Source: Paenibacillus sp. FSL H8-0048 (GTDB taxonomy: Bacteria; Bacillota; Bacilli; Paenibacillales; Paenibacillaceae). Taken from it: a DNA stretch of 64,000 nucleotides. The DNA lies in NCBI RefSeq assembly GCF_038002825.1, contig NZ_JBBODF010000001.1, forward strand, positions 6,510,001-6,574,000. Reading direction: 5' to 3'. The translations under genes and the position numbers were made by a program. This document shows, piece by piece, positions 29,727 to 47,038 of the stretch (position 1 is its first letter; the number at the start of each line of letters is the position of its first letter). Under the pieces are notes generated by a model, which was given only the letters and a program-made list of their open reading frames with translations, did not search any database and had not been told where the DNA came from.

Positions 29727-29761
29727 GCCTAAGATGACAGTTAGCTTGTACTATAATACAC

Positions 29762-29819: not shown

Positions 29820-30257
29820 CTACACGGGCACGATCACTTTTCCTGTAATGTGGATAGGGCCCCTAAGGTTAATTTCGCCTTGAAGATCTTCGAGGTTAGA
29901 GGCAAAGACCTGAAAAGCATAATAGCCTTCGGGCAGATCGGTAAGGATCGTCTGGAACATGGTGGTCATTCGGATCGGATCTCCGTCCGCCGGGATAGCG
30001 GATTGTTCGGCACTGCCTACGAGAATTCCATTTACAAGCACTTCCAGCAGGAGAGTGGGTTGAACAGGCGGTGTGGCAAAGACGTTAGTAGCCTCCCAGC
30101 CAACAGTTGTAGACAGCTCTACGAAATTGCTTGGAGCAGGAGGAACGGGCATACCGAATTCCAAGATCAGGTGCTGTGTTCCGTCGATTGGAATCGGAGG
30201 TCCAAAAGATAGATTGCTACTGACACTTCGGGCAAATTCTACTAGGGTATGCGGCAT
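29820..30257 (-). CDS. Small beta-rich protein, possibly exosporium/spore-surface (ExsC-like)
   Basis: This 145-residue protein has no signal peptide or membrane helix. The sequence is rich in beta-forming residues. The run VELSTTVGWEA, VLVNGILVG, TMFQTILTDLPEGYYAFQVFA and INLRGPIHITG follows the pattern I remember in B. cereus exosporium protein C relatives, but the match is loose. The gene is real rather than a shadow: its ATG has GGAGGTG at ideal distance on the minus strand and a terminator follows the stop. It is convergent with divIVA and divergent from the cgeB-type gene, at the edge of the spore sugar locus, which supports a spore-surface role by inference. Confidence 0.6.
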   Translation of the reverse strand: MPHTLVEFARSVSSNLSFGPPIPIDGTQHLILEFGMPVPPAPSNFVELSTTVGWEATNVFATPPVQPTLLLEVLVNGILVGSAEQSAIPADGDPIRMTTMFQTILTDLPEGYYAFQVFASNLEDLQGEINLRGPIHITGKVIVPV

Positions 30258-30369
30258 TTTTTCACCTCCATATTATGGCATAGTTCCATCCTATGTTTTA
30301 AGTGAATATTATGTTAGAGACAACACCCTATGGACTGGAAAAATATCGGAAATTTTGGTGGTGATAGCT

Positions 30370-31344
30370 ATGAATATCCTATTTATAACTTCAGGCTTCC
30401 AGGGCGTGTATTCTTTCTTCGAACAGCGTATTGCAGAGGCTTTACAGAAAGCGGGGCACCATTGCAGAGCTTTGCAGCCTGACAGTGCTTTAGGTGAATT
30501 AAAGCTTAACCAGCCTTTTTGGCAGCCGGAGCTAATTCTGCTTATGGCTGGTTTGAAGGTCTCAGAGCCTGTGCTGGAGTGCATCAGACAATCCGGGGTG
30601 AAATCAGCGGTATGGATGACAGAGGACCCCTATTACATGGATTGGACAGCTCCGCTGATTGCTTATTTTGATTATATTTTCACTATTGACCAAGCTGCAG
30701 TGGAGCATTATCAAGCCTTGGGGCACCCCCGGGTCTATCATCTGCCGCTGGGCACAGATCCTGAGCTGTTTCACCCCGCAGCCGTATCCGAGGAGTATAG
30801 ATGTGATATCTGCTTAGTAGGCGTGCCTTACAGTAACCGGATTGAGCTTATAGAAGCCTTACTTGCAGGCACAGCCTATCACATCCAGCTAGTGGGGCGG
30901 GGGTGGGGCCGGTACTATCATGAGTGGAAGCATGGCGCTAAGCGCAATGTGGAGCTGGTGAATGCCTGGGTCCCGCCGGAGACGGCTGCTAAGTTTTATA
31001 ACGGGGCGAAGATTGTGCTGAATGTCCACCGCCCTTCCGCTGAGAAGTACAACCGGAACCGGGCAGGGATTATCGCCACAAGCATCAACAACCGCACCTT
31101 TGACGCAGCCAGCTGCGAAGCGTTCCAGCTTACCGATCATAAAAGCGGGCTCCGCCATCAGTTCGAGGAAGGCACACAGGTGGTTTCTTATCAGGATAAG
31201 CAGGATTTGCTGCAAAAGATCCATTACTACATGGCGCATGACGAGGAGCGCAAGCGGATCGCTGAAGCAGCGAGGCAACAGGTGCTGGCAGCCCATACCT
31301 TTGAGCACCGGCTGCATGTTTTGTTGATGAACGTGCAAGCTTAA
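30370..31344 (+). CDS. cgeB: CgeB-family glycosyltransferase (spore maturation)
   Basis: This 324-residue GT-B type enzyme starts NILFITSGFQGVYSFFEQRIAEAL, then WMTEDPYYMDW and FTIDQAAVEHY in the acceptor half. The donor half carries CDICLVGVPYSNRIELIEAL and NRTFDAASCEAFQLTD, the usual DUF3880 plus glycosyl-transferase-1-like layout of CgeB. B. subtilis CgeB is involved in decorating the outer spore layer. ATG 30370 follows GGTGGTGAT; the longer frame to 30073 is antisense to the neighbouring gene. A terminator follows, so it is a unit apart from the sps operon. Confidence 0.82.
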   Translation: MNILFITSGFQGVYSFFEQRIAEALQKAGHHCRALQPDSALGELKLNQPFWQPELILLMAGLKVSEPVLECIRQSGVKSAVWMTEDPYYMDWTAPLIAYFDYIFTIDQAAVEHYQALGHPRVYHLPLGTDPELFHPAAVSEEYRCDICLVGVPYSNRIELIEALLAGTAYHIQLVGRGWGRYYHEWKHGAKRNVELVNAWVPPETAAKFYNGAKIVLNVHRPSAEKYNRNRAGIIATSINNRTFDAASCEAFQLTDHKSGLRHQFEEGTQVVSYQDKQDLLQKIHYYMAHDEERKRIAEAARQQVLAAHTFEHRLHVLLMNVQA

Positions 31345-31369
31345 TAGACGGATTCACCGGACCTGATAG

Positions 31370-31401
31370 ACGCTCCGCAGTTCATCTGCCGGGCGTTTAT
31401 T
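31370..31401 (+). terminator. Intrinsic terminator after the cgeB-type gene
   Basis: ACGCTCCGCAG pairs with CTGCCGGGCGT (11 positions, one mismatch), loop TTCAT, then TTTATT. Confidence 0.65.
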
Positions 31402-31442
31402 CAGGTTTGCCCATAGACTAAGTCCGCTATTTTGTCCTCCAG

Positions 31443-31470
31443 TTGAAAATTTAGTCTTCTAACCTATAAC
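31443..31470 (+). promoter_or_regulatory. Candidate promoter of the sps operon
   Basis: TTGAAA (31443-31448) and TATAAC (31465-31470) are 16 bp apart. This is a vegetative-type promoter reading. A sporulation sigma factor could also act here, but no clear sigma-E or sigma-K pair was found. Confidence 0.5.
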
Positions 31471-31523
31471 GTTTCGAAGAAGGATACATATGATAGCAAG
31501 TAAACAGCGGGGGAGGTATTCGA

Positions 31524-32300
31524 TTGCCAAAGGTTACGATTATTATGACCAGCTACAATAAGGCCGCATATGTCGCAAAGTCCATTGAATCCATTCTGAA
31601 TCAGACGCTTACAGACTTTGAATTCTACTTGATGGATGATAACTCGAATGAAGAAACTCTGAAAGTGATTGAGCCCTATCTCAAGGATGAGAGAATCAAA
31701 TTCTTCAGAAGCGATACGGAAACCCTGCAGCAGAGAGTAGAAAAGGTCAGATACTCCGCGCTGATCAATCAAGCCCTCGCTCAAGCACAGGGAGAGTATA
31801 TTTCCTATGCTACCGATGACAACCGTTACAGAAATACTAGACTTGAGCAGATGGTGGACTATCTGGAGGAGAATCCCGAAGTCATGATTGCCTACTCTGC
31901 GTCGCTGGTCAACTACTTGAACGAACAGGATGAAGTGACCCGCAGCCAGCTTAGACCGGCCAAAAAAATCGTTTCGGTGGCCCCTTGTGTCATCGATCAT
32001 TGCTCCATCCTGCACAGAAGCTCGATTCTTCCGGTCATTCATGACAAGTTCGGGTCTTACTGGGATGAGAATCCGGAGTTCTATCGAATAGGTGACGGCA
32101 GGTTCTTTTGGCGGCTTAACCAGTTCTGGGATTTCTACCCGGTTGACGAGGTTCTGGATGATAACTATATCACCGAGCTGTCGATTCATTATCAATTGCA
32201 GCATCAGGAGAAGAGCCAGTTCATCCAGATGCTTCCTCCGCAGCGGACCTGCAAGGAACTCAGGGAAGAGCTAAAGCTCATTCAGCAGCAAAAGAAATAA
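31524..32300 (+). CDS. spsA: SpsA, spore coat polysaccharide glycosyltransferase (GT2)
   Basis: This 258-residue GT-A enzyme aligns over its full length with B. subtilis SpsA: MTSYNKAAYVAKSIESIL at the start, DDNSNEET at 38-45, the metal/nucleotide motif ATDDN at 96-100, APCVIDHCS, FGSYWDENPEFYRIGDGRFFWR and the C-terminal PPQRTCKELRE. Asp39, Asp98 and Asp99 match the nucleotide- and metal-binding aspartates of that family. The TTG start follows GGGGGAGG. It heads an operon of eleven genes and probably transfers an activated sugar to the spore coat glycan; the actual donor is unknown. Confidence 0.92.
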   Translation: MPKVTIIMTSYNKAAYVAKSIESILNQTLTDFEFYLMDDNSNEETLKVIEPYLKDERIKFFRSDTETLQQRVEKVRYSALINQALAQAQGEYISYATDDNRYRNTRLEQMVDYLEENPEVMIAYSASLVNYLNEQDEVTRSQLRPAKKIVSVAPCVIDHCSILHRSSILPVIHDKFGSYWDENPEFYRIGDGRFFWRLNQFWDFYPVDEVLDDNYITELSIHYQLQHQEKSQFIQMLPPQRTCKELREELKLIQQQKK

Positions 32301-32340
32301 AATCTCTGTCTAGACAGGAACCACGAGGAGGGAGAACGGA

Positions 32341-33765
32341 TTGTCCACCTATCTGTCCAATTACTGGTCACTCTATAGTGAATTTATCCATACTGCGCAG
32401 GAACTGAAGTACAGGAATATCCCTCTGGCCCTGATGACAAACTTCTATCAACAAATCAACGATGAGCTTAGGAGCGAGATGGGGAGCAGCGGGTTCAGGC
32501 TGAAGCTGGAGCATTCCGGTATTCATGAGCAGCACCAGATTCAGCCTTTCTTTGAAAAGTGGGTTGCGCTGCTCTATCAGCCTGTGAAGTCCAATCTGAA
32601 GGGCAAAATACTGATCAATCTGGACTATATCAGAATGTCGGAGCAAACAATCAGTGAGTATTTCAGCGGAGATTCGGCCATGATTCTATCCCGCTCCAGA
32701 GCGGAGGAGCTATTTGGCATCCCCAATGTATACAGCCTGGGCTACAAGCAGGATACCAAAGCTGCTGCAGAAGAGCTGGTCCGGCGCGCTGCTGACCTTT
32801 TTGCGAAGGCCGAAGGACATCCTGCGTTCAGTAATGAATTTTTTGTCCAGACCTTCCTAAGCCGGATTCCTTCCATTGTAGATACCATTGAAATGGTATT
32901 TAATCTCTACAATGACCTGCCGGTAGCCGCTGTAATGGTAGGTACGACAGAAGATGTAGCCAGCCGGGCGCTTGCCGTCGTTGCAGGGATTAAGGGGATT
33001 CCCAGCGTATGTCTGCAGCACGGAATTCTGATGGGAGAGGAAGCCTTCATTCCTGTATTCTCCAGCCATATCGCAATTTACGGGCAATATGAACATGATT
33101 GGTATGTGCGCAGAGGGCTTGAAGCTGAGCGGATCGTGATTACCGGCCATGCCCGTTACGATGATATCTTTACCTCGAAGGTTACGTCTACAGAGTCTTT
33201 TAGAGAAACCTACCAGCTTGATCCTCATAAAATCACCTTACTGATCGCTACCGGACCGACGCTGGATGAATACAAGATCCGTACCCTGCTCACCCAATTG
33301 GCCTCACATCCGCAGTTCCAGCTGATCATCAAGCCACATCCCTGGGAGCTGTCCAAGAAGCTGATCTCGCTGTATACCGGGTACGAAGAAGAATATAGCA
33401 ATGTTCATGTGGTTACTGACCGGAAGGCAGATACCCGTGAGCTGATTATGAAATCGGACGCTGTGGTCGCCACCCTCTCTACAGTTGCCCTCGAAGGCCT
33501 TTTATTCGGCAAGCCTGTATTTGTCTATAAATTCATTCAGGCTAACCGTGAATATGATTACTATGATGCCCTTGACCGCTATATTCAAAAAGAACCGGCG
33601 GACTTAACCCGTATCATCGCCCGTTATTATTCCAGCAATATAGAGAAATCAAACTACAAGATTGTAAAAGAGAAATTCTTGCAGCAATCCTATCAGATTC
33701 CTGACTCCGGCAAAGCGCTTGCGGATCTCATGGACCGGCTGATCCATGGAAGCGGGAATCGATGA
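32341..33765 (+). CDS. spsB: SpsB-like CDP-glycerol/polysaccharide transferase (GT-B fold)
   Basis: At 474 residues it is the same length as B. subtilis SpsB and follows spsA as there. The second half has GIPSVCLQHGIL, IAIYGQYEHDWY, VITGHARYDDI, a phosphate-binding-like IIKPHPWE, then AVVATLSTVALEGLLFGKPVFVYKF, a donor-site pattern seen in the CDP-glycerol glycerophosphotransferase and UDP-GlcNAc 2-epimerase superfamily. No membrane helix is visible. It probably acts in assembly of the spore coat polysaccharide. The TTG start follows GGAGGGAGAA. The substrate cannot be told from sequence. Confidence 0.8.
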   Translation: MSTYLSNYWSLYSEFIHTAQELKYRNIPLALMTNFYQQINDELRSEMGSSGFRLKLEHSGIHEQHQIQPFFEKWVALLYQPVKSNLKGKILINLDYIRMSEQTISEYFSGDSAMILSRSRAEELFGIPNVYSLGYKQDTKAAAEELVRRAADLFAKAEGHPAFSNEFFVQTFLSRIPSIVDTIEMVFNLYNDLPVAAVMVGTTEDVASRALAVVAGIKGIPSVCLQHGILMGEEAFIPVFSSHIAIYGQYEHDWYVRRGLEAERIVITGHARYDDIFTSKVTSTESFRETYQLDPHKITLLIATGPTLDEYKIRTLLTQLASHPQFQLIIKPHPWELSKKLISLYTGYEEEYSNVHVVTDRKADTRELIMKSDAVVATLSTVALEGLLFGKPVFVYKFIQANREYDYYDALDRYIQKEPADLTRIIARYYSSNIEKSNYKIVKEKFLQQSYQIPDSGKALADLMDRLIHGSGNR

Positions 33766-33782
33766 AGCGGGAGGTGGAGAGC

Positions 33783-34787
33783 ATGTTCTTCCGGAATAAA
33801 AGGATTCTGATCATCGGCGGTACCGGCACCATCGGGAAAAGTATTGCGAAGCTTCTGCTGAAGCAGGAGCCAGAGATCATCCGGATTCTCAGCAGAGACG
33901 AGTATAAGCAGTTCGAGCTGCAGGATGAGCTGCAAGGGAACGCAAGACTTAGCTGCCTGATTGGAGATGTCCGGGATTATGACCGTGTGCTGGCGGCAAT
34001 GGAGGGGATAGATTATGTGTTCCATACTGCTGCTATGAAGCATGTATCCTTCTGTGAAACTAACCCGTTCGAGGCTGTACTTACGAACATTATCGGCACT
34101 CATAACGTGATTCAGGCAGCGAAGCAGCAGAAGGTAGGCAAGGTCGTTTTTACAAGCACAGATAAAGCCATTTCACCGACCAACAACTATGGAGCCACCA
34201 AGCTGTCTGCGGAGAAGCTGATTTCCTCTGCCGTCACCTCGGGCGGCTCCGGCCAAACGGTGTTCTGCACCGTACGGTTCGGGAATGTGATGGGCTCCAG
34301 AGGGTCTGTTATTCCTTTGTTTGTGAAGCAGGCGAGAGAAGGCAGGGCGATCACCGTAACAGATCTGTCCATGACAAGGTTCATGATGACGCTGGAGCAG
34401 GCGACCCGGCTGACCGTTCAGTCCCTGCAGCTGGCGAAGGGTGGTGAGACTTTTATTCTGAAGATGCCGGTGATCAGGCTGAAGGATCTGGCTGAGGTTG
34501 TAGCCGAGGAGGTGCCGAAGAAATATGGGACCCTCCCGGCTACGGTGACGATCCTGGAGATCGGCCTGAAGCCAGGCGAGAAGAGATACGAAGAACTGAT
34601 GACCCGCGAGGAATCACTAAGCGCTTATGAATTGAAGGATGTATACATTGTCCCTTCCCCCTATGCTGCACCGCAGTCCTACCGGGAAGCAACCAGGCCG
34701 AAGCCGGGCACCTACAGCTCCGAAGGAGAGACCCCGCTGACCAAGGAGCAGGTCAAGAAGCTGGCATCGGAACAAAATCTAATCTAG
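33783..34787 (+). CDS. pseB: PseB-like UDP-GlcNAc 4,6-dehydratase
   Basis: This SDR enzyme is expected to perform the first step of pseudaminic acid synthesis, 4,6-dehydration of UDP-GlcNAc with C5 inversion. From ATG 33783 (334 residues) it shows the NAD(P) motif GGTGTIG at 12-18, GDVRDYDRV, the AAMKHV block, and the catalytic set Thr126-Asp127-Lys128 with Tyr136 and Lys140 (YGATK). RFGNVMGSRGSVIPLF is typical of the PseB/CapD short family. The start follows GGGAGGTGGAG; an upstream ATG at 33762 overlaps the spsB stop. CapD-type retaining dehydratase activity is an alternative. Confidence 0.85.
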   Translation: MFFRNKRILIIGGTGTIGKSIAKLLLKQEPEIIRILSRDEYKQFELQDELQGNARLSCLIGDVRDYDRVLAAMEGIDYVFHTAAMKHVSFCETNPFEAVLTNIIGTHNVIQAAKQQKVGKVVFTSTDKAISPTNNYGATKLSAEKLISSAVTSGGSGQTVFCTVRFGNVMGSRGSVIPLFVKQAREGRAITVTDLSMTRFMMTLEQATRLTVQSLQLAKGGETFILKMPVIRLKDLAEVVAEEVPKKYGTLPATVTILEIGLKPGEKRYEELMTREESLSAYELKDVYIVPSPYAAPQSYREATRPKPGTYSSEGETPLTKEQVKKLASEQNLI

Positions 34788-34799
34788 TGGAGGCTTACT

Positions 34800-35765
34800 A
34801 TGAATATACTTGTAACCGGAGGTGCCGGCTTCATCGGCAGATGGGTGGTCGGACGTTTGTTAAAGGATGGACAAAGGGTATGGGTCGTTGATAATCTGGC
34901 GAATTCATCGTTGGATAATCTGAAGGAGTATGAGGATAACGAGCATTTGCAGAAGGTGCAGATTATGGACCTTAAGGACAGAGCAGCCTTGAAGGAGCTT
35001 TTCCGGGAGAATTCGTTCGACCTGTGTTACCACCTCGCGGCAAGCATTAATGTGCAAGACAGCATAGATGATCCTGAGACCACGTTCAACAATGATACGC
35101 TGGCGACCTTCTATCTGCTGGAGGAATGCCGCAAGCAGCAGGTGAAGCTGGTCTTCATGAGTACCTGCATGGTCTATGCCAGAGCGGCGGATGAACAGGG
35201 AATTGATGAGCAATCCCCTATCAAGCCAGCCTCTCCCTACGCCGGGGCCAAGATCGCTGCGGAGAATATGGTACTATCCTATTTCTATGCCTATGATCTG
35301 CCGGTGGTGGTCGTAAGGCCATTTAATACGTATGGTCCCTATCAGAAAACCGGCGGCGAAGGCGGGGTCGTGGCGATCTTCATCCACAGCAAATTAAAAG
35401 GCCAGCCGCTGAATATCTACGGGGACGGCACTCAGTCACGGGATCTATTATATGTGGGAGACTGTGCAGATTTCGTAGTGGAGGCGGGTTACAGCGATAA
35501 GCTGCATGGAGAAATTATCAATGCAGGCACAGGTGAGGATATCACCGTCAATCAATTGGCCGAGCTGATTGCAGACGGGCAGGCACCAGTCCAGCATGTT
35601 CCCCATATCCACCCGCAGAGTGAGATCCAGAAGCTGTTATGCAATTATAACAAGGCAGAGAAGCAATTGTCCTGGACACCTAAGGTTACCATCCAGGAGG
35701 GCATCCGGCAGACAGAGCAATGGATTCTTGAGACCTTTCACCGAAAGGAGCCGAACCAATCATGA
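34800..35765 (+). CDS. NAD-dependent nucleotide-sugar epimerase/dehydratase
   Basis: This 321-residue extended SDR has TGGAGFIG at 6-13, the catalytic Tyr147 and Lys151 (YAGAK), STCMVYA before it, and VRPFNTYGPYQ and GTQSRDLLYVGD in the substrate half. These fit an NDP-hexose 4-epimerase or 4,6-dehydratase. It is not needed for the standard pseudaminic acid path, so it may supply another sugar of the same glycan or a parallel GDP/UDP branch. It starts 12 nt after pseB and overlaps the aminotransferase gene by 4 nt (ATGA). Confidence 0.82.
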   Translation: MNILVTGGAGFIGRWVVGRLLKDGQRVWVVDNLANSSLDNLKEYEDNEHLQKVQIMDLKDRAALKELFRENSFDLCYHLAASINVQDSIDDPETTFNNDTLATFYLLEECRKQQVKLVFMSTCMVYARAADEQGIDEQSPIKPASPYAGAKIAAENMVLSYFYAYDLPVVVVRPFNTYGPYQKTGGEGGVVAIFIHSKLKGQPLNIYGDGTQSRDLLYVGDCADFVVEAGYSDKLHGEIINAGTGEDITVNQLAELIADGQAPVQHVPHIHPQSEIQKLLCNYNKAEKQLSWTPKVTIQEGIRQTEQWILETFHRKEPNQS

Positions 35766-36958
35766 GTAAAAGCAAACTGGCCATTGACGGCGGGAAGCCT
35801 GTACGTGCGCACTACTTGCCGTATGGGAGACAGATGATCGATGACGAGGATATTGAGTCCGTGGTCAAGGTGCTGCAAAGTGATTATTTGACCAGCGGCC
35901 CGGCCATTGAGCAATTCGAAGCAGAGATCGCAGCGTTTACCGGGGCAAAATATGCGGTGGCCTTCTCCAGCGGAACTGCGGCCCTGCACGGGGCCTGTTA
36001 TGCCGCCGGGATCGGCGAAGGGGATGAGGTGATTACGACTCCCATGACGTTTGCCGCTACTGCGAACTGTGTACTGTATCAGGGGGGCGTACCGGTATTC
36101 GCAGATATCGATCCGCGGACGTATAATCTTGATCCGCAGCGGATCAGGGAGAGAATTACGGCCCGAACGAAAGCGATTATTCCCGTCCATTTCACCGGCC
36201 AGCCGGCACAGCTTGATGAGATTCTGGAGATTGCAGGGGAGCATAATCTGATCGTGATTGAGGATGCGGCCCATGCGCTTGGTGCGAGATATAAGAATAG
36301 AAGTATTGGGGCTATCGGGGACATGACCATGTTCAGCTTCCATCCTGTAAAGCATATAACAACGGGAGAAGGCGGAATGATTACGACCAATAACCCGGTG
36401 TATTATGAGAAGCTGCTGCAGTTCCGCACCCACGGCATCACCAGGGATGAGCGCAAGTTAAGGGAGAACCACGGACCCTGGTATTATGAGATGCAATTCC
36501 TCGGGTACAACTACCGGATCACAGATATCCAGACCTCACTCGGCATCTCCCAGCTGCGCAGAATCGGGGGCTTCATCGAGAAGCGTAAGCAGCTTGCCGC
36601 CTTGTATCTGCAGGAGCTGAGCGGGACCAAGGAGCTTATTCTGCCGCATCAGCTTCCAGAGGCGGAGTCGAGCTGGCATCTGTTCATTGTCAGACTTCAG
36701 CTCGCAAGGCTGAAGGCCACCCGCAAGACGGTCTTTCAGGCGCTGCAAAAGGAGAACATCGGAGTCAACGTCCACTACATCCCCGCTTATCTGCATCCGT
36801 ACTACGAAAGCCTGGGGTTCCGCAAGGGAATCTGTCCGGTCGCTGAAAGCTGCTACGAGGAATTCATTACACTCCCGCTATATGCGGGCATGGAAGCTGA
36901 AGATGTGATGGATGTGGTCGCCGCAGTCAAGAAGGTGATCCGCCACTACTCCAAGTAA
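35762..36958 (+). CDS. pseC: PseC/SpsC-type sugar aminotransferase (DegT/DnrJ/EryC1)
   Basis: This PLP enzyme adds an amino group to C4 of the keto sugar made by PseB. It is 398 residues long. LPYGRQMIDDEDIESVVKVL and LTSGPAIEQFE are PseC-type starts. The cofactor lysine is Lys197 in FSFHPVKHITTGEGG, and RTHGITRD, HGPWYYEMQFLGYNYR and TDIQTSLGISQL follow. B. subtilis SpsC holds the same place in its sps operon. The start overlaps the previous stop by 4 nt. Specificity for the pseudaminic rather than the legionaminic branch is inferred from the neighbours. Confidence 0.9.
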   Translation: MSKSKLAIDGGKPVRAHYLPYGRQMIDDEDIESVVKVLQSDYLTSGPAIEQFEAEIAAFTGAKYAVAFSSGTAALHGACYAAGIGEGDEVITTPMTFAATANCVLYQGGVPVFADIDPRTYNLDPQRIRERITARTKAIIPVHFTGQPAQLDEILEIAGEHNLIVIEDAAHALGARYKNRSIGAIGDMTMFSFHPVKHITTGEGGMITTNNPVYYEKLLQFRTHGITRDERKLRENHGPWYYEMQFLGYNYRITDIQTSLGISQLRRIGGFIEKRKQLAALYLQELSGTKELILPHQLPEAESSWHLFIVRLQLARLKATRKTVFQALQKENIGVNVHYIPAYLHPYYESLGFRKGICPVAESCYEEFITLPLYAGMEAEDVMDVVAAVKKVIRHYSK

Positions 36959-36981
36959 CAATAGAGAAGGGAGGGATTAAT

Positions 36982-38781
36982 GTGGGCAAAGTGAAGGTGA
37001 TTGCCGAAATTGCCAATGCCCATTGGGGCGACCTCCGCCGGCTGCGGGAGCTGATCCTCGCAGCCGCACGCAGCGGCGCTGACGGGGTGAAATTTCAATG
37101 GTTCCATTACGACAGCCTGGCGGCGCCGGATTTCATCCATTATCAGACGTATATTGATTTGTTCATCGGTAAGCAGCAATGGGCGGAGGCTGTCCGGCTT
37201 GCCAAGGCTGAGGGACTGGAGGTCTGGGTAGACCTATATGATGAATGGGGAGTCGGGCTGCTCGCGGAGCTTGAAGATCAGGTGGACGGTTTGAAATTAC
37301 CCACAACCGTCTTGCAGTCACTCCCCTTGATTCAAGGCCTGCACAAGTTCAATAAGCCCTTACTCATCGGTGTGAGCGGCTGGCTGAAGGAAGAGATGGA
37401 TACGCAATTATCCTACATTCGGAGCCATTTCAAAGGTCCAATCGTGCTCATGCACGGCTTCCAGGGCTATCCGACCCGGACAGAGGATTCCAACCTGAGC
37501 CGCATCGCCCATATCAAGCAGACCTATCAGCTGGAGGTGGGCTTCGCGGATCATGAGGATGCTGATCATGAAATGGCAGTGGATCTTCCGGTGTATGCCT
37601 ATCTGCTGGGGGCCAGTGTCATTGAGAAGCACATTACCTTGAACCGTGCCGAGAAAGGGATTGACTATTATTCGGCGCTTACGCCGGAGGAATTCGGGCG
37701 GATGGTGGAGAAGCTGCGCCGTGCAGAGTGTGTACAGGGCATCCTCGAAATTAAGGACTCGGAAAGACGGTATCTGGAGGATTCCTCTCTGAGGATCGTC
37801 TCCCGCAGAGAGCTGCGCCCGGGTGAAATGATCACGCCTGAGAACATATGCTATAAACGTTCCTCTATGCCGGATGCCTTCATGGCCCGCAATGCTTCCG
37901 TACAATTTCCTATGATTGCCACCTCGGTAATTCCTGCGAACACACCCATCACGCCCGGGAAGGTAAAAGCACCCAAAATCTGCATTGCTGTCATCTGCAG
38001 ATTGAAATCCACCCGGCTCCGCCGCAAGGCGCTGCGCGAGATTCACGGCATTGCGGCCATCGAGAGATGCCTGATGAATTGTCTGGCTGTGCCGGGCGGC
38101 TATGAGGTAGTTCTAGCCACCTCGAATCTGCCGGACGACCAGCCGCTTACGGCGTTCACCCTGAACGGTCAGGTGAAGGTGGTAACCGGTGACCCGGACA
38201 ATGTGGCTGCAAGAATGCTGAGCGTGGCTGAAGCGGTCCAGGCGGATATCGTAGTCCGGGTGACCGGCGACAATCCGGCGGTCTCTCCGGAGATGCTTAA
38301 GACTCTAATAGGCCGGCATCTGGCAAGCGGTGCAGATTTCACCTACGCCAAGGAATCAACTATGGGGACGGTCGGGGATATATTTACCGTTGAAGCGCTG
38401 AGAAGGCTGCTGCACTATTCCAATCCGCTTACGCATGCGGAGTATCTGTCCTTTTACTTTTTCAACAATCCGCATCTCTTCAAGATCAATGCTGTGGACC
38501 TTCCTGCGGAGTGGGTGCATCCCGAGTGGCGGTTAACCATGGATGAGATTCAGGATCTGGAGCTGTTCGAGGCGGCCTACCAGGCACTGGATGTGGGGCC
38601 AAGACCGCTGTTCTTCGAAGAATTGAAGGCATTCCTTCAGGAACACCCTGAGGTGGCTGAGCGCAACCGGGGCATTCAGGTGAAATGGCGGGATGATACG
38701 GAGCTGGTCAAGGAGCTGAATGCAGCTACCACCTTGAACAATAATGATAACGTTAGCGGGGCGTCAAATGATGATCAATAA
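36982..38781 (+). CDS. SpsE-SpsF fusion: NeuB-family nonulosonate synthase plus cytidylyltransferase-like domain
   Basis: This 599-residue protein joins two enzymes that are separate in B. subtilis (SpsE and SpsF). Residues 1-245 are a NeuB-type barrel (AEIANAHWGD, GADGVKFQ, GFADHED at 187-193, ASVIEKHITLNR). Residues 265-325 resemble the SAF/antifreeze lid (RELRPGEMITPENI). Residues 332-560 are an SpsF/CMP-sugar synthetase-like domain (CRLKSTRL, GDPDNVAARM, RVTGDNPAVSPE, WRLTMDE). It could condense PEP with an amino sugar and then activate the product with CTP. GTG 36982 follows GGGAGGG. The 3' end overlaps the next gene by 14 nt. The NeuB half is divergent: VDLYDEWG replaces the common STPFD block. 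Confidence 0.85.
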   Translation: MGKVKVIAEIANAHWGDLRRLRELILAAARSGADGVKFQWFHYDSLAAPDFIHYQTYIDLFIGKQQWAEAVRLAKAEGLEVWVDLYDEWGVGLLAELEDQVDGLKLPTTVLQSLPLIQGLHKFNKPLLIGVSGWLKEEMDTQLSYIRSHFKGPIVLMHGFQGYPTRTEDSNLSRIAHIKQTYQLEVGFADHEDADHEMAVDLPVYAYLLGASVIEKHITLNRAEKGIDYYSALTPEEFGRMVEKLRRAECVQGILEIKDSERRYLEDSSLRIVSRRELRPGEMITPENICYKRSSMPDAFMARNASVQFPMIATSVIPANTPITPGKVKAPKICIAVICRLKSTRLRRKALREIHGIAAIERCLMNCLAVPGGYEVVLATSNLPDDQPLTAFTLNGQVKVVTGDPDNVAARMLSVAEAVQADIVVRVTGDNPAVSPEMLKTLIGRHLASGADFTYAKESTMGTVGDIFTVEALRRLLHYSNPLTHAEYLSFYFFNNPHLFKINAVDLPAEWVHPEWRLTMDEIQDLELFEAAYQALDVGPRPLFFEELKAFLQEHPEVAERNRGIQVKWRDDTELVKELNAATTLNNNDNVSGASNDDQ

Positions 38782-39685
38782 AGCGGGTCTTGTGCTGGGG
38801 ACGGCCCAGCTGGGCGGAAATTACGGGATTGCGAATACAGCTGCGAATCCCTCTGTGCAACAGAGGAACGAGCTGCTCCAATATGCCCTCTCTGCAGGGA
38901 TCGGTTATTTGGATACCGCGCCGGGATACGGGGACAGCGAGTCTGTCATCGGAGATTGCCTGGAAGGTGCAGATCCGCAGAGCCGGCCGCAGATTGTGAC
39001 GAAGCTCCCTTCCGTCCAGCGGCTGCGGCTGCATACGGAGGAAGCGCGGAGGAGGTTCGTCATCTCTTCCGTGCATACTTCCCTGAACCGGCTGAAGTGT
39101 TCTGCGCTGGATGTCTGTCTGTTGCATGATCCGCTCGATCTGACTTACCAGGGCGGCGAAATCCTGCAAACGCTGCAGGAAATGCAGCAACTGCAGCTGA
39201 TCCGCAGAATCGGTGTATCTGTGTATGATGCGGAGGATATTGCGGATTTTATGCGCGTGGAGGGGCTGGACAGCATTCAGATTCCGCTGAATGTCCTGGA
39301 CCAGAGATGGCTCGCGAATGGAATGCTGGAGCAGCTCACCCGGAAGGGAACAGAAATCTTCGTCCGCAGCGTCTATCTGCAAGGTCTGCTGCTGATGGCA
39401 CCGGAGCAGCTTCCGGCGGGGCTGAGGCGAGCGAAGCAGCCGTTGTTACGATTAAACAGCTACAGCAAGGAAACCGGGATACCTGTTAAAGAGCTGTGCT
39501 TCCTCTATGTGAGGGATCTTCCGGGGATATCCGGGCTGGTGATTGGCTGCGAGACGGCGCGGCAGGTGCAGGAGAACCTGCGGATGATGGCATTGCCCCC
39601 TCTAAGCCGGGCGGTGAGGCAGACGCTTGGTGAATCCTTTACGGATATGCCTGTAGAGATCATTGACCCCAGGAGGTGGAAGTAA
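38768..39685 (+). CDS. Aldo/keto reductase in the sps operon
   Basis: This 305-residue (beta/alpha)8 oxidoreductase has LVLGTAQLGGNYGI at the start. The AKR tetrad appears as Asp and Tyr in YLDTAPGYGDSES, Lys in VTKLPS and His in LLHDP, and the cofactor end block is SGLVIGCETARQVQEN. It probably reduces a keto sugar or aldehyde; the substrate is unknown. ATG 38768 (or 38771) lies inside the end of the fusion gene, with only a weak ribosome site, so coupling is likely. Such reductases are not part of the known pseudaminic acid path. Confidence 0.82.
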   Translation: MMINKAGLVLGTAQLGGNYGIANTAANPSVQQRNELLQYALSAGIGYLDTAPGYGDSESVIGDCLEGADPQSRPQIVTKLPSVQRLRLHTEEARRRFVISSVHTSLNRLKCSALDVCLLHDPLDLTYQGGEILQTLQEMQQLQLIRRIGVSVYDAEDIADFMRVEGLDSIQIPLNVLDQRWLANGMLEQLTRKGTEIFVRSVYLQGLLLMAPEQLPAGLRRAKQPLLRLNSYSKETGIPVKELCFLYVRDLPGISGLVIGCETARQVQENLRMMALPPLSRAVRQTLGESFTDMPVEIIDPRRWK

Positions 39686-39689
39686 CCGG

Positions 39690-40487
39690 ATGCGAACTCT
39701 TCAAGAATTATTTAATCTGCAAGGCAAGGCAGCGGTTGTGACCGGAGGGGCTGGTTATCTGGGTACAGCTATAGCGGAGGGGCTGGCTGAGGCTGGTGCG
39801 GCGGTCTATCTGGTAAGCTCGAATGGGCAGCGCTGCAAGGAGACCGCTGAGGCGATCGCCCGCACCACCGGAGCAGCCTGCTTCGGCAAGGCGATGGATA
39901 TCCGGCAGGAAGCATCAGTCAGAGAATGTATTCAGAGCATCGCTGAAGCGGCCGGAAGCATCGATATCCTGGTGAATAATGCCGCATTCAGCTCAGCCGC
40001 AAGGCTTGCGGATATGAGTGAAGAACAGTGGCTGGCCGGGCTGGACGGGACGATCAACGGAACCTTCAGATGTGTCAAAGCGGTCCTGCCCTATATGGTT
40101 GAGCAAAAGAGAGGCTCCATCATTAACGTCTCCTCGATGTACGGGCTGGTCTCGCCTAACCCGGAGGTCTACGGAGACAGCGGGATGGATAATCCCGCTA
40201 ATTACGGAGCCGGTAAAGCAGCGATAGGCCAGTTTACCCGTTACATTGCCTGCCACTTCGGGCAACACGGAATCAGAGCGAATACGGTATCGCCCGGGCC
40301 CTTTCCTAATGCAGCGGTTCAAGCTGCTGATCCGCAGTTCATCCAGGATCTGAAACGGAAGAATCCGCTGGGCAGAATCGGTACCCCTGAAGATCTAAAG
40401 GGAGTGATGGTGTTCCTGGCTTCCGCCGCCTCAAGCTATGTTACAGGTGAGAATATTTCTGTTGACGGAGGCTGGACCGCATGGTAA
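39690..40487 (+). CDS. Short-chain dehydrogenase/reductase
   Basis: This 265-residue classical SDR has TGGAGYLG at 18-25, NNAAFSS at 96-102, SSM at 148-150, the catalytic Tyr172 and Lys176 (NYGAGK), and the C-terminal block YVTGENISVDGGWTAW. It resembles PtmA-like and gluconate 5-dehydrogenase-like SDRs found in flagellin and spore glycan loci. The substrate is not known. The start at 39690 follows AGGAGGTGG, 4 nt after the reductase gene, and the end overlaps the next gene by 7 nt. Confidence 0.85.
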   Translation: MRTLQELFNLQGKAAVVTGGAGYLGTAIAEGLAEAGAAVYLVSSNGQRCKETAEAIARTTGAACFGKAMDIRQEASVRECIQSIAEAAGSIDILVNNAAFSSAARLADMSEEQWLAGLDGTINGTFRCVKAVLPYMVEQKRGSIINVSSMYGLVSPNPEVYGDSGMDNPANYGAGKAAIGQFTRYIACHFGQHGIRANTVSPGPFPNAAVQAADPQFIQDLKRKNPLGRIGTPEDLKGVMVFLASAASSYVTGENISVDGGWTAW

Positions 40488-41599
40488 GCACAGCAGCTAA
40501 TCCAATGAATATATGGATTCGGGCCGATTCTTCGTATTCAATGGGCACGGGCCATATCATGCGCTGCCTGACACTTGCAGGCGGGCTTGCCGCCAGAGGC
40601 GGGCAGATCACGTTCATTTGCCGCGAGCTGCCGGGGAATCTGGCCGACTATATCAGAGGCCAGGGCTATGCGGTGGAGCTGCTGCCGCCCCCGGATGATC
40701 CGTCGTACGCCGCATTCTGGCTTCAGGTGGATTGGCGGACCGATGCTATGGAGACGGTGCAGCGGCTGGAGGGGGCTGCTCCTGCGGATTGCCTCATTAT
40801 CGACCATTATGGGATTGATAAGCGGTGGGAGACATGGGTACAGGGGAAAGTGAAAAAGATAGTAGCCATCGACGATCTGGCGGACCGCCCGCATGAGTGT
40901 GATCTGCTGCTGGACCCCAATCCATCCGCTGCCAGAGACCGTTACCAGGGGCTGCTGCCTGCTTACTGCACGAAATTGACAGGCACCTGCTATACACTGC
41001 TCCGGCCTGAATTCCGCGCGGCTAAGAGGGGGCTGGCTGAACGGGACGGAAGCATAAGCCGGGTTCTGGTGTTTTTTGGCGGCACCGATCCTACGGGGGA
41101 GACTCTCAAAACCTTGCAGGCCCTGCAAAGTCCCGCCTTCGCTAACCTGCGGCTGGATGTCGTAGCAGGCGGAATGAACCGCCGCAAGGATGAGATTGCC
41201 TTCCTATGCGGCTCGATGCCGAATTCCACCTTCCATTGTCAGATTGATTACATGGCTGACCTGATGAAGAAGGCGGACCTCTCCATCGGAGCAGGCGGAA
41301 GTACTACCTGGGAGCGCTGTTACCTGGGCCTGCCTTCGCTGTGCATTATTACGGCGGATAATCAGCGGGAGATTACGGCCTTGGTTCATGCGCAGGGGGC
41401 TGCATTAAGCCTGGGGAAGAGTAATGAAGTGACAGCCCAAGCAATTGAGCAGGGGCTTAAGGCTATGCTGGCTGACCCGGCGAGGGTACGGGTCATGTCA
41501 GATCAGGCGCTCCGCCTGATGGGCGAGGATAAATGGGATGAGGTTATAGACAGGATTATGGGAGGGGACTATGGCAGACCTAAGGGATTACAGGCTTGA
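40481..41599 (+). CDS. pseG: PseG/SpsG, UDP-sugar hydrolase (UDP-2,4-diacetamido-2,4,6-trideoxy-altropyranose hydrolase)
   Basis: PseG removes UDP from the diacetamido sugar before condensation with PEP. The 372-residue GT-B-like protein (MurG relative) has IRADSSYSMGTGHIMRC with His25 in the glycine-rich loop, LIIDHYGID, VAIDDLADRPHECDLLLD, VLVFFGGTDPTGET and GAGGSTTWERCYLGLPSL. B. subtilis SpsG is the orthologous family member. The start overlaps the SDR stop, with GGAGG 9 nt upstream; the end overlaps the next gene by 29 nt. Confidence 0.9.
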   Translation: MVSTAANPMNIWIRADSSYSMGTGHIMRCLTLAGGLAARGGQITFICRELPGNLADYIRGQGYAVELLPPPDDPSYAAFWLQVDWRTDAMETVQRLEGAAPADCLIIDHYGIDKRWETWVQGKVKKIVAIDDLADRPHECDLLLDPNPSAARDRYQGLLPAYCTKLTGTCYTLLRPEFRAAKRGLAERDGSISRVLVFFGGTDPTGETLKTLQALQSPAFANLRLDVVAGGMNRRKDEIAFLCGSMPNSTFHCQIDYMADLMKKADLSIGAGGSTTWERCYLGLPSLCIITADNQREITALVHAQGAALSLGKSNEVTAQAIEQGLKAMLADPARVRVMSDQALRLMGEDKWDEVIDRIMGGDYGRPKGLQA

Positions 41600-42143
41600 G
41601 AAGCTGAGCCGGGAGCATAGCCGGCTAATATGGGAATGGCGCAATGCCGATCACATCCGGCCCTATATGAATCATGACGGGATGATTCCACTGGAAGAGC
41701 ATCTTAGCTGGATGGATGCCATAGCGGAGGATACCAGCCGGGTCGTCCGGATCTGTTACTATCTGGACACACCGGTGGGCTTCGTGCAGTTCTCGCAGAT
41801 CGACAGGGTCCACAAAATCTGTGAATGGGGCTTTTATATAGGGGAGAAGAGCTGTCCCCCCGGCTCCGGCACCATGATGGGAATCTTGGCGCTGGAGCAT
41901 ATTTTCCAGGTAGAGCAGCTAAGTAAGGTATGCGCGCAAATTCTGGATTTCAATCAGCGGAGCTTGTCCTATCACCGGAAACTAGGCTTCGTAGAGGAAG
42001 GCAGGCTATGCAGGCAACGGATCAGAAATCATCAGCCAGTGGATGTGGTCTTGATGGCCCTGTTCCGGGAGCAATGGGAGAGCCGCAGGCTACGGCTGAC
42101 AGAGGAGGCAACGACAAGCCATGAAGGAAATCAGGATCGGTAA
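41571..42143 (+). CDS. pseH: PseH/SpsD-type GNAT N-acetyltransferase
   Basis: It is expected to acetylate the C4 amino group of the UDP-sugar from acetyl-CoA. This 190-residue GNAT protein has WEWRNADHIRPYM, then LSWMDAIAED, ICEWGFYIGEKSCPPGSGT (acetyl-CoA loop) and QILDFNQRSLSYHRKLGFVEEG. These are PseH family features. The last ~20 residues are charged. It starts after GGAGGGG inside the end of pseG and overlaps pseI by 23 nt, showing tight coupling. Confidence 0.88.
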   Translation: MADLRDYRLEKLSREHSRLIWEWRNADHIRPYMNHDGMIPLEEHLSWMDAIAEDTSRVVRICYYLDTPVGFVQFSQIDRVHKICEWGFYIGEKSCPPGSGTMMGILALEHIFQVEQLSKVCAQILDFNQRSLSYHRKLGFVEEGRLCRQRIRNHQPVDVVLMALFREQWESRRLRLTEEATTSHEGNQDR

Positions 42144-43173
42144 CCGCACCATCGGCAGCGGACATCCGCCTTTTGTCATCGCGGAGATGTCCGGTAATCA
42201 TAATCAGTCCCTGGACCGTGCGCTCGAAATCGTTAAGGCCGCCGCCCGGTCTGGTGCACATGCGTTCAAAATCCAGACCTATACGCCGGACACCATGACG
42301 CTTAATCTACGGAATAAGGATTTCATGATTGGGGAATCGAACGGGCTGTGGAAAGGGAAGTCGCTGTATGAGCTGTATGCTGAAGCATATACGCCCTGGG
42401 AGTGGCATGAGCCAATCTTTGCTTCGTGCAGGGCACTCGGGATGATTCCATTCAGCACCCCGTTCGATGAGTCCTCGCTAGAGTTCCTGGAGAGCCTCGG
42501 CGCCCTCTGCTACAAGATTGCTTCCTTTGAAAATAATGATATTCCCTTATTACGGAAGGTGGCCTCCAAAGGGAAGCCGATGATTATTTCCACCGGGATG
42601 GCCTCGCTCGGCGATATTGAGCAAGCTGTCCGCACCATAACCGGGGCAGGCTGCCGGGAATATATACTGCTCAAATGCACCAGCAGCTATCCGGCTTCGC
42701 CCGAGCATACCAACCTCAATACCATTCCGTATCTGCGTGACGTCTTCCGTGCTCAGGTGGGCCTGTCCGACCATACTCTGGGTGTAGGGGCAGCAGTAGC
42801 AAGCGTAGCGCTGGGCAGTACTGTGATCGAAAAGCATTTCACCCTGAACCGTGCGGAAGGCGGGGTGGATGCTGCATTCTCCCTGGAGCCGGCAGAGTTC
42901 GCTTCCTTGATCCGGGAGACAGATACGGCCTGGAGGGCACTCGGCGGCGTCTCCATCGGCCCCACCCCCGAAGAAGAGAAATCCCTGCAGTTCAGACGGT
43001 CTGTCTATACCTCCAAGGATATCAAGGCCGGAGACCTGCTCACTGCGGATAACCTTAAAGTCATCCGTCCCGGCTACGGCCTCGCGCCCAAATATTATGA
43101 TCTGCTCATCGGCAAACGCTTGAGAACCGATCTGCCCGTCGGCACCCCGCTGAGCTGGGACCTGCTGCTGTAA
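42121..43173 (+). CDS. pseI: PseI, pseudaminic acid synthase
   Basis: PseI condenses PEP with the free 6-deoxy-diacetamido-altrose. This 350-residue NeuB-family enzyme has VIAEMSGNHNQS, AFKIQTYTPDTMTL, FSTPFDESSLEFLE, KIASFENNDIPLL, STGMAS, VGLSDHTLG, VIEKHFTLNRAEGGVD and a C-terminal SAF lid (SVYTSKDIKAGDLLT). TPDTMTL and KIASFE are typical of PseI rather than NeuB. It is the second synthase of the operon, beside the SpsE domain of the fusion protein, and the last gene before the ileS leader. Confidence 0.93.
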   Translation: MKEIRIGNRTIGSGHPPFVIAEMSGNHNQSLDRALEIVKAAARSGAHAFKIQTYTPDTMTLNLRNKDFMIGESNGLWKGKSLYELYAEAYTPWEWHEPIFASCRALGMIPFSTPFDESSLEFLESLGALCYKIASFENNDIPLLRKVASKGKPMIISTGMASLGDIEQAVRTITGAGCREYILLKCTSSYPASPEHTNLNTIPYLRDVFRAQVGLSDHTLGVGAAVASVALGSTVIEKHFTLNRAEGGVDAAFSLEPAEFASLIRETDTAWRALGGVSIGPTPEEEKSLQFRRSVYTSKDIKAGDLLTADNLKVIRPGYGLAPKYYDLLIGKRLRTDLPVGTPLSWDLLL

Positions 43174-43179
43174 TCCGCC

Positions 43180-43208
43180 TTGACAATTGGGGCGAAAACG
43201 TCTATAAC
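43180..43208 (+). promoter_or_regulatory. ileS promoter
   Basis: TTGACA (43180-43185), a 17-bp spacer and TATAAC (43203-43208) form a near-consensus sigma-A promoter directly after pseI, so ileS has its own start. Confidence 0.8.
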
Positions 43209-43214
43209 TAGAAC

Positions 43215-43530
43215 ATATCTGTATCCATTGAATCCAAATTCGATGACGGGACAAGTACGATAAGGTAACGTTCTCCAGAGAGTCGGTGCTTGCTGCGAGC
43301 CGATCGTTCACGCCTTACCCGAAGATCCTCCCCTAGAAGCTAAGCTGAAGCGTGTATACGTGTGTAGGCTCCGCCGTCTGCCGGACGTTATCCCGGACCC
43401 GCAAGGTTGTCTATTGCCTGCGGACTGAGATTGTGCTGAATTCACACCCCTTAGGATGTGCGTGCAGTGCAGATTAGGGTGGTATCGCGAGCGTCGTCTC
43501 GCCCCTTTGGGGGCGGGGCGGCGTTTATTT
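43215..43530 (+). promoter_or_regulatory. Isoleucine T-box riboswitch leader
   Basis: The leader has the S-turn element AGTA near 43256, GAA followed by a likely specifier ATC (43325-43327, isoleucine codon), the conserved T-box AGGGTGGTATCGCG at 43476-43489, and a GC-rich terminator 43491-43530 (15-bp stem, then TTTATTT). Uncharged tRNA-Ile would favour the antiterminator and so allow ileS transcription. The exact boundaries are estimated. Confidence 0.9.
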
Positions 43531-43540
43531 GTGTGGTGGG

Positions 43541-43839
43541 CATCCCCCTAAATCCCCCTTCCAAGGGGGACCCCAAGGGCTGGCCGCCCTCTGGACACCC
43601 GCAATAAGTGCTTATCGAGGTTGGAGGGGCGTCCGCGGAAGGGGAAAAATTTGTTCGGCGTAGGACCGGCCCTTCTTAGGCGTACCCGTCAGGGCAGCCT
43701 AAGAAGGGCTGAGGACTCCGCCAAAGTAATCCTTCCCGTCCACTGACCCTGCTCCTTACACGATGCACTGATTTAGGGTGTCCAGAGGGCAGCGCCCTTG
43801 GGGCCCTCCCTTGGCGAAGGGAGGGTTTGGGAGGGATCG
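43541..43839. repeat. ~300-bp palindromic repeat element (MITE-like)
   Basis: The outer arms 43541-43601 and about 43776-43839 are imperfect inverted repeats; both share CCCTCTGGACACCC at the inner end and runs of CCCCAAGGGC. Inside, GCCCTTCTTAGGC and GCCTAAGAAGGGC (around 43669-43708) form a perfect 13-bp stem, and the flanking parts also pair, so the whole element folds on itself. It holds no convincing ORF. It lies between the T-box terminator and ileS, so it becomes part of the ileS mRNA leader. No target duplication is visible. Confidence 0.75.
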
Positions 43840-43945
43840 AAAAGCTTTAAAGAATTTAGTTTGTAAAAAGAATTTAAGTTTCTAAAAAAACAGGCTCGGA
43901 TGTAATCCGAATAAGGTTTAAGACTAAACGAAGGGATTGACCATT

Positions 43946-46900: not shown

Positions 46901-47038
46901 CTGAAGGCGGCGGTGACCGCATTCGAGCATGTGCTGCGTGAGAACGTACTTGTGACTACGGTGGATTTTGACGGAGATTATATCTATGAGACAGTGGACG
47001 CCGGAGGCAAGAGCTTCGGTATTCATATCGGCGCTTAA
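43946..47038 (+). CDS. ileS: Isoleucyl-tRNA synthetase, type 2 (eukaryote-like)
   Basis: This class I synthetase charges tRNA-Ile. It has 1030 residues, with the HIGH motif at 54-57 in GPPTANGVPHIGH and KMSKS at 590-594. WTTTPWTLPAH belongs to the editing domain, and ISRNRYWGTPLNVW and ADMICEGIDQTRGWF are present. The C-terminus has no cysteine-rich zinc ribbon and the protein is ~110 residues longer than B. subtilis IleRS. These features and the motif context place it in the IleRS2 clade, whose members are often insensitive to mupirocin. ATG 43946 follows AAGGGA. It is preceded by an Ile T-box, fitting the function. Confidence 0.95.
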   Translation: MHKVDVKEKARARDVRILKKWSEEDTFRRSMENREGRPNYVFYEGPPTANGVPHIGHVLGRVIKDFIGRYQTMKGFRVIRKAGWDTHGLPVELGVQKKLGISGKQDIEEYGVEKFIKECKESVFGYEKQWREFTEAIGYWTDLDHPYVTLDNTYIESVWNILATVHEKGLMYRGHRVSPYCPSCQTTLSSHEVAQGYKTVKDLSATAKFKLDGSGDYVLAWTTTPWTLPAHMALAMNPNMEYVRAQQEDGVYVLAKNLVDEVLKGEYTILSTHTGADFIGQSYTPPFGYIKAEKHNVIVGASFVTDSSGTGIVHMAPAHGEDDYKSCRENGISFVNVVDASGKYTDVVSDFAGRFVKDCDLDIVKVLSERGLLYHKEKYEHSYPFCWRCDTPLLYYATDSWFIQTTAIKDQLIANNNSVDWYPDHVREGRFGKFLEELVDWNISRNRYWGTPLNVWVCQDTGKEFAPHSIAELREMAIGEVAEDIELHKPYVDNIQLRSPFSEGGIMVRTPEVIDVWFDSGSMPFAQSHYPFENQDRFEDQYPADMICEGIDQTRGWFYSLLAVSTLFTGKAPYKAVIAHGHIFDENGQKMSKSKGNVIDPWEIMNEYGTDAFRWAILSDSAPWNNKRFSRGLVGETKSKVVDTLVNTHAFLTLYAGIDGYDPADHPFKVSEHKLDRWILSRLNSLIVLVDKGLAVNDFVNTSKAIENFVDELSNWYIRRSRDRFWGSGLGEEKLDAYRTLTHVLLTTAKLMAPFTPMLSEDIFTNLGGGESVHLADYPAADENLIDLVLEKDMEYARGIVELARNVRNESGIKNRQPLSELIASTPDDFNVADYEELIKEEINVKNIVIEHSDSGFVDFTLKLNLKVAGKKYGKSVGFLQGFLKAMDSDATRKAVQEGVIAIVSPDGEELQITSEELLVEKQAKPGFASASGYGLTVALNTEITPELVQEGWVREVVRAVQDYRKRLDLPIDKRIALTLQVDDELKAAVTAFEHVLRENVLVTTVDFDGDYIYETVDAGGKSFGIHIGA

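Follow-up and report, generated by a model that had tools for sequence, protein, structure and literature searches.

A mobile sugar module of predicted pseudaminic-type chemistry and probable spore-surface function in Paenibacillus

Between divIVA and ileS in the genome of Paenibacillus sp. FSL H8-0048 (contig NZ_JBBODF010000001.1, positions 6,510,001 to 6,574,000; this 64-kb stretch is referred to as the window) lies a module that combines genes of the spore-coat sugar (sps) type with genes for the synthesis of pseudaminic acid (Pse). Judged by its genes and their arrangement, the module is a variant of the sps kind, with pseudaminic-type in place of legionaminic-type chemistry, mobility and an exchangeable tailoring cassette. 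Its core probably provides a pseudaminic-type sugar for the spore surface. A survey of 100 Paenibacillus genomes, in which a module was called by an SpsA relative at E ≤ 1e-50, identified the SpsA-bearing module in 23 genomes.

The first-pass annotation had described an operon of eleven tightly packed genes at 31524-43173, with about 14 kb between divIVA and ileS. All eleven were recovered in order as plus-strand open reading frames (ORFs), each with a single terminal stop, and the intergenic gaps of only -38 to +40 bases are consistent with one operon; the end of divIVA (29726) and the start of ileS (43937) are separated by 14.2 kb. The unit is larger than annotated, however, because hypM and cgeB travel with the module, giving 13 genes from 29820 to 43173:

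29820..30257, minus strand: hypM, 145-residue all-beta protein, divergent from cgeB, with a predicted TNF/C1q-type jelly roll
30258..30369, no strand assigned: common upstream region of hypM and cgeB, with a -10-like CATANNNT for hypM at 30287-30295 on the minus strand
30370..31344, plus strand: cgeB-type glycosyltransferase (DUF3880 and Glyco_trans_1_2), present in 23 of 23 modules; the name CgeB is our assumption
31469..31495, plus strand: sigma-K-type promoter motif of the spsA operon, AC-N16-CATATGATA
31524..32300, plus strand: spsA, GT2 glycosyltransferase, close relative of B. subtilis SpsA (phmmer E 5.4e-102 to 1h7l, residues 2-253)
32341..33765, plus strand: spsB-type GT-B protein, CDP-glycerol/capsule/BFO_1060-like (two Pfam families slightly above their cut-offs, NCBIfam matches below)
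33762..34787, plus strand: pseB, UDP-GlcNAc 4,6-dehydratase of the inverting type (T-x9-Y-x3-K; 305.7 bits, below the TIGR03589 cut-off of 407.75)
34800..35765, plus strand: extended short-chain dehydrogenase/reductase (SDR), probable nucleotide-sugar 4-epimerase (STCMVY)
35762..36958, plus strand: pseC (481.7 bits, cut-off 423.5)
36982..38781, plus strand: fused NeuB-like (SpsE-related) and CTP_transf_3 (SpsF-related) domains, by domain matches and alignments
38744..39685, plus strand: aldo-keto reductase (Aldo_ket_red), candidate EpaA-type tailoring enzyme
39663..40487, plus strand: SDR (adh_short_C2), candidate EpaB/AciE-type tailoring enzyme
40481..41599, plus strand: pseG, UDP-sugar hydrolase (287.1 bits, cut-off 153.55)
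41571..42143, plus strand: pseH, N-acetyltransferase (110.4 bits, cut-off 93.1)
42121..43173, plus strand: pseI, pseudaminic acid synthase (471.5 bits, cut-off 340.25)
43180..43509, plus strand: promoter-like box and T-box leader of ileS, the intact flank of the insertion

Promoter motifs and assignment to the spore

The motif AC-N16-CATANNNTA, which we take to be the sigma-K consensus, was identified upstream of spsA in all 23 modules, ending approximately 30 bases before the gene. Its spacer is 16 bases long throughout and occurs as 18 distinct sequences, with a lowest pairwise identity of 19% and a mean of 64%. The strict pattern (N16-17) has three matches on the two strands of the 64-kb window. 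In nine stretches taken for comparison from the surroundings of flagellin genes or Pse genes of the flagellar type, it occurs eight times in a total of 360 kb of strand, and it arose in 0.15-1.9% of Markov shuffles, depending on the intergenic region. Upstream of hypM, the -10 element is present in 23 of 24 loci, accompanied in 14 of the 24 by an AC 16-17 bases upstream, and no AC and -10 pair directed toward cgeB was found in the shared hypM/cgeB region of these loci. The sps genes of B. subtilis are under sigma-K control and place legionaminic acid (Leg) on the spore crust (PMC7439481). Two points tell against too strong a use of these data: the 23 modules are related, and hence the promoter count does not amount to 23 independent observations, and no NCBIfam model scores above its cut-off on SpsA, the best being EpsE (77.2 of 450 bits).

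The module could instead be an island for flagellin glycosylation that has moved away from the flagellar genes. The genus does contain flagellar Pse clusters: a Maf test of three such clusters (L105, L112 and L115) identified an MptE-like (Maf) gene beside the Pse genes in each, and flagellin is also encoded in L105 and L115. Furthermore, the window's genome carries two flagellin-domain genes, and relatives of the reductase described below often reside in clusters that also encode Maf (all five of the stretches tested). These clusters are nonetheless of a separate kind, and two genomes (G026 and G067) hold both a flagellar Pse cluster and a spore-type module. A search of the window's genome for PF01973 (Maf) gave no match, its flagellin-domain genes lie 1.3 Mb from the module, and the sigma-K-type motif precedes spsA; the displaced-island explanation was therefore rejected as very improbable. 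The assignment to the spore rather than to the flagellum, which the first-pass annotation had also made, is thus well supported on computational grounds.

The divergently encoded HypM would add a surface protein to this spore-type set. It has no Pfam match, and its predicted model is a jelly roll with a mean predicted local distance difference test score (pLDDT) of 82.6, for which the best structural matches were TNF-like lectins (Z 12.4-13.7) and Pgp3 (Z 12.6-13.5), followed by B. anthracis BxpB (Z 11.7), BclA (10.9-11.1), ExsF/ExsFA (10.5-11.1) and other TNF-fold proteins. Identity to the TNF/C1q-fold proteins is 10-14% over the aligned parts, and the shared fold in itself shows no function; both a spore-surface structural protein and a glycan lectin fit the model. 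An identity as an F-ENA appendage subunit, though conceivable, was considered and set aside, there being no Pfam hit and, among the matches listed, no F-ENA title, just ExsF and F-BclA. HypM could serve the spore glycan as its acceptor or as a lectin that binds it.

Predicted sugar pathway and its tailoring

PseC, PseG, PseH and PseI all score above their curated cut-offs, which indicates a pseudaminic-type backbone, and PseI scores 471.5 bits as compared with 283.7 for NeuB_NnaB. For PseB, TIGR03589 is the best family, and its motif TDKAISPTNNYGATK carries Tyr where SpsM-type enzymes carry Met; the first enzyme of B. subtilis is described with the motif T-x9-M-x3-K (PMC7439481). The extended SDR encoded next, which is also found near pseC in flagellar clusters, reads STCMVY at a position where dehydratases, as we assume, carry an acid, and is hence more likely a 4-epimerase. 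SpsB gave weak matches, BFO_1060-family glycosyltransferases among them, and a predicted structure of low quality (pLDDT 47.2); TagB-domain proteins are named as candidate Pse/Leg transferases in the same study (PMC7439481).

From these assignments we infer the following scheme. Expression would take place in the mother cell and depend on sigma-K. Starting from UDP-GlcNAc, PseB, PseC, PseH, PseG and PseI would produce a nonulosonic acid of the pseudaminic type, which the CTP-transferase part of the fusion would activate with CMP. SpsA, SpsB and CgeB would build and cap a spore-surface glycan, SpsB being the candidate nonulosonic acid transferase, and HypM, as a TNF/C1q-type spore-surface protein, would carry or bind it. 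The aldo-keto reductase and the SDR would most likely oxidise and then re-reduce the sugar at C8, yielding 8-epi-Pse or a close derivative.

The gene annotated at first as "SpsE-F" does encode fused SpsE- and SpsF-related domains. Its CTP-transferase activity is likely; the CTP domain is 23-26% identical to the PseF-like gene found in six simpler modules. In the NeuB-like half, however, two motifs are changed in all 16 full-length fusions (a count that excludes alignment rows dEF_L024 and dEF_L025), which weakens the reading of the protein as an ordinary synthase plus cytidylyltransferase. The Glu and the second Asn of the PseI motif KIASFENN are lost, the window reading KLPTTVLQ, with neighbouring sites that vary in relatives and a Ser kept in one, and the ISTG of PseI reads IGV[SG]GW. 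B. subtilis SpsE (1vli alignment) keeps KIASYEIN and has STAG at the second motif. With these changes, the NeuB half probably does not act as a regular nonulosonic acid synthase, the assignment of phosphoenolpyruvate-binding residues being taken from general knowledge of the family.

The presence of two NeuB-family domains within a single operon might suggest that two nonulosonic acids are made, one via PseI and the other via the NeuB half of the fusion. All 16 full-length fusions conserve this half and retain its AEI and VKFQ motifs and the His residues of MHG/IHG and ADH. The replacement of the SxExN Glu and Asn and of ISTG in the same 16 proteins speaks against a second synthase, as does a relative, P. 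tritici (G094, L043/L088), in which only the CTP half is encoded and the rest of the module is kept. We regard a two-sugar module as unlikely. Outside the genus, a 48% identical NeuB-CTP fusion was identified in another genus of the family (G334, L103:10448-12208), after pseI and near transposase genes, with no reductase match within 20 kb. A search of 398 phylum genomes (E ≤ 1e-40) revealed no such fusion outside the family; apparent distant cases in G069, G008 and G439 proved to be adjacent but separate PseI and CTP genes, divided by stops.

The aldo-keto reductase and the SDR, which the first-pass annotation had passed over, say more about the product than any other genes of the module. The residues that we take to be the catalytic sets of the two families are invariant in 12 aligned sequences of each. 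A reductase profile search of the 398 phylum genomes (E ≤ 1e-45, at most five candidates per genome scored) gave matches in 10 other genomes among the candidates scored; in all 10, a CTP-transferase is fused to the reductase, adjoins it or lies one gene away, and each stretch contains one or more Pse-type genes. Three of them are CTP_transf_3-Aldo_ket_red fusions of 545-550 residues with the EpaA domain order. An SDR 41-50% identical to that of the window accompanies the reductase in five of the 10 stretches. Since Maf was found in each of the five stretches tested, the relatives of the reductase pair appear often to be flagellar, unlike the spore-type module here. In one Maf-bearing Pse cluster, a 508-residue ORF (L130:6172-7698) has a PseH-like N-terminal and a PseI-like C-terminal part. 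Among phage records, 140 matched the SDR, the best of the matches listed at 36% identity.

EpaA and EpaB convert Pse to 8-epi-Pse in the A. baumannii capsule, as established by NMR (PMC12053666). AciE, an SDR of the adh_short_C2 family, has been linked to 8-epi-acinetaminic acid (PMC5595891), and a Vibrio cluster carries a trio of CTP-transferase, aldo-keto reductase and dehydrogenase (PMC7371886). By analogy with these systems a C8-epimerised Pse is predicted for the module. The 8-epimer step taken alone, with the reductase pair giving 8-epi-Pse, is put forward tentatively, at clearly less than even chances.

An alternative that concerns the product only, and leaves the spore assignment common to both, is that the sugar is plain Pse, or Leg as in B. 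subtilis, and that the reductase pair modifies something else, such as another nucleotide sugar or the glycan itself. B. subtilis spores carry Leg, the enzymes of the Pse and Leg pathways are homologous, and two junction modules (L044 of P. piscarius, G043; L045, G083) keep the fusion and their other genes without either reductase. On the other side stand the PseI scores given above, the Tyr of PseB where SpsM has Met, and the reductase family itself, of which every match at E ≤ 1e-45 was accompanied by a CTP-transferase and by Pse-type genes. This alternative is a substantial possibility, somewhat short of even.

Several further observations weigh against the inferred scheme. PseB reaches 305.7 of the 407.75 bits required, a B. 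subtilis control was also matched in the PseI and PseC searches (without indication of whether the cut-offs were passed), and the role of the NeuB-like half has no explanation in the proposed scheme. The SDR of stretch L127 is only 30% identical, and no SDR match was found in reductase stretches L129, L131, L133 and L132 (3.2 kb). Searches for the reductase in phages, and reductase and SDR profile searches of viral contigs, gave no match. Finally, B. subtilis SpsB is dispensable for Leg transfer (PMC7439481).

Distribution, insertion and exchange of modules

Across the 23 modules, the order hypM, cgeB, spsA, spsB, pseC, pseG, pseH, pseI is constant, and hypM matches at E < 1e-70 in every SpsA-bearing genome. 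Strong hypM matches without SpsA occur in three more genomes (G037, G053 and G059), among which P. monticola (G037, L079) has hypM and cgeB alone, the other module genes being absent; weak matches (E 2.6e-11 to 9.8e-4) were found in G008, G057 and G080 and as a second copy in G059. A hypM profile search of genome contigs yielded 12 loci, all from Paenibacillus. Two modules, in G074 and G077 (L047 and L052), lack pseB and the epimerase gene, and the enzyme for the initial step must therefore be encoded at another locus in each genome.

The divIVA-ileS junction holds 11 of the 23 modules. Both flanks were seen in 10, and in G041 the divIVA side was seen and ileS lies at the start of a separate contig. 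A tree built from five proteins of the module separates the 11 junction modules as one clade, with support 1.0, from the other 12, none of which has divIVA adjoining hypM. Twenty stretches upstream of ileS were drawn from the 89 genus genomes without a module at that site, and in 19 the junction is empty, with divIVA 0.9-2.1 kb from ileS and no module gene between them. The twentieth (L058, G059) has pseI fragments near ileS, weak pseC- and epimerase-like matches between ileS and hypM, hypM 24 kb away and no divIVA within 15 kb; it is a decayed module copy at the same junction. At one empty site (L060), the flanks join, and approximately 90 bases separate the sequences that correspond to window positions 29728 and 43195; the module was thus inserted cleanly and left the T-box of ileS intact. 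The annotated insertion between divIVA and ileS thus holds for the window, but the junction is not the module's defining site, as 12 of 23 genomes carry it elsewhere. On these comparisons, the module is mobile.

The T-box of ileS (43234-43509) scores 81.8 bits (E 6.2e-18), short of the gathering score of 93, and is preceded by a TTGACA-N17-TATAAC box at 43180. With these two elements of its own, ileS is unlikely to rely on read-through from the operon. Two further features of this flank were noted. The ileS product (43937-47038) scores 1184.7 and 1164.5 bits with the MupA/MupB models, whose cut-off of 1900 is not reached, versus 945.7 with TIGR00392, and may on these scores be of the second isoleucyl-tRNA synthetase type. 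The segment between the T-box and ileS (43540-43850) has several overlapping and inverted matches in the junctions of relatives and perhaps represents a small repeat family.

The slot between pseC and pseG is variable. It is occupied by one PseF-like gene in six of the 23 modules and by the NeuB-CTP fusion in 16, including the window, where a dedicated PseF is not present and the fusion, the reductase and the SDR are found instead. The reductase and SDR accompany 15 of the 17 modules with the fusion or the CTP half. Relative to the simple module of G006, the module of G029 is 92-98% identical in spsA, pseB, epimerase, pseH and pseI, 90% in hypM, 80% in cgeB and spsB and 83% in pseG. Its pseC is 79% identical to that of G006, 85% to that of the composite module G030 and 97% to that of G089; the five-protein tree, although PseC is among its proteins, still places G029 and G089 with the simple modules (support 0.999). 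The simplest reading of these identities is that the block from pseC to the SDR has been exchanged between modules.

Relation to known systems and biological meaning

With B. subtilis sps (SpsM, C, D, G, E, F), the module shares SpsA, an SpsB-type protein, a PseC/SpsC-type aminotransferase, a PseG/SpsG-type hydrolase, SpsE- and SpsF-related domains and the sigma-K-type promoter motif, but it has PseB, PseI, PseH, an epimerase and two reductases, its SpsE and SpsF are fused with changed SpsE motifs, and cgeB and hypM are joined to the unit. Five of the six enzymes of the CMP-Pse pathway (PseB-C-H-G-I-F; H. pylori, C. jejuni and flagellar islands of Bacillota) are present by family, PseB below its cut-off, whereas PseF is replaced, Maf and flagellin are absent, and spore-type glycosyltransferases and the sigma-K-type motif are added. 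In the EpaA/EpaB system of A. baumannii prophages, likened here by domains, CTP_transf_3, Aldo_ket_red and adh_short_C2 are likewise encoded together, but the CTP domain of the module is fused to the NeuB-like domain rather than to the reductase, and the module is chromosomal and lies beside a Pse pathway rather than in a prophage. The nab cluster of Vibrio B9-25K2 (PMC7371886) also has, downstream of PseC, an SpsF-like CTP domain with an aldo-keto reductase, followed by a dehydrogenase; it differs in that the reductase is fused to the CTP domain and there are no spore genes. The predicted fold of HypM is that of the exosporium proteins BclA and BxpB/ExsFA and of TNF-like lectins.

To our knowledge, no epimerised nonulosonic acid has been described on a spore. 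A literature search of titles and abstract openings turned up no such sugar, no nonulosonic acid on Paenibacillus spores and no Pse on any spore; the sole spore nonulosonic acid found was the legionaminic acid of B. subtilis, called the first in the paper that describes it (PMC7439481). If the proposed scheme is true, the module would represent a second spore nonulosonic chemistry, pseudaminic-type and perhaps C8-epimerised. The fuller picture, in which Paenibacillus spores carry 8-epi-Pse or a C8-modified relative and exchange the pseC-to-SDR cassette, with recombination replacing a simple PseF-like gene by the NeuB-like/CTP fusion, reductase and SDR, so that their surfaces vary between species as capsules and flagella do, is possible, although we would rate it below an even chance. 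Natural deletions separate the steps, in P. piscarius (L044) and G083, in P. tritici (L043/L088) and in the six simple genomes with a PseF-like gene, and Pse on spores, the action of the reductase pair and the diversification of spore glycans by cassette exchange are all open to direct test.

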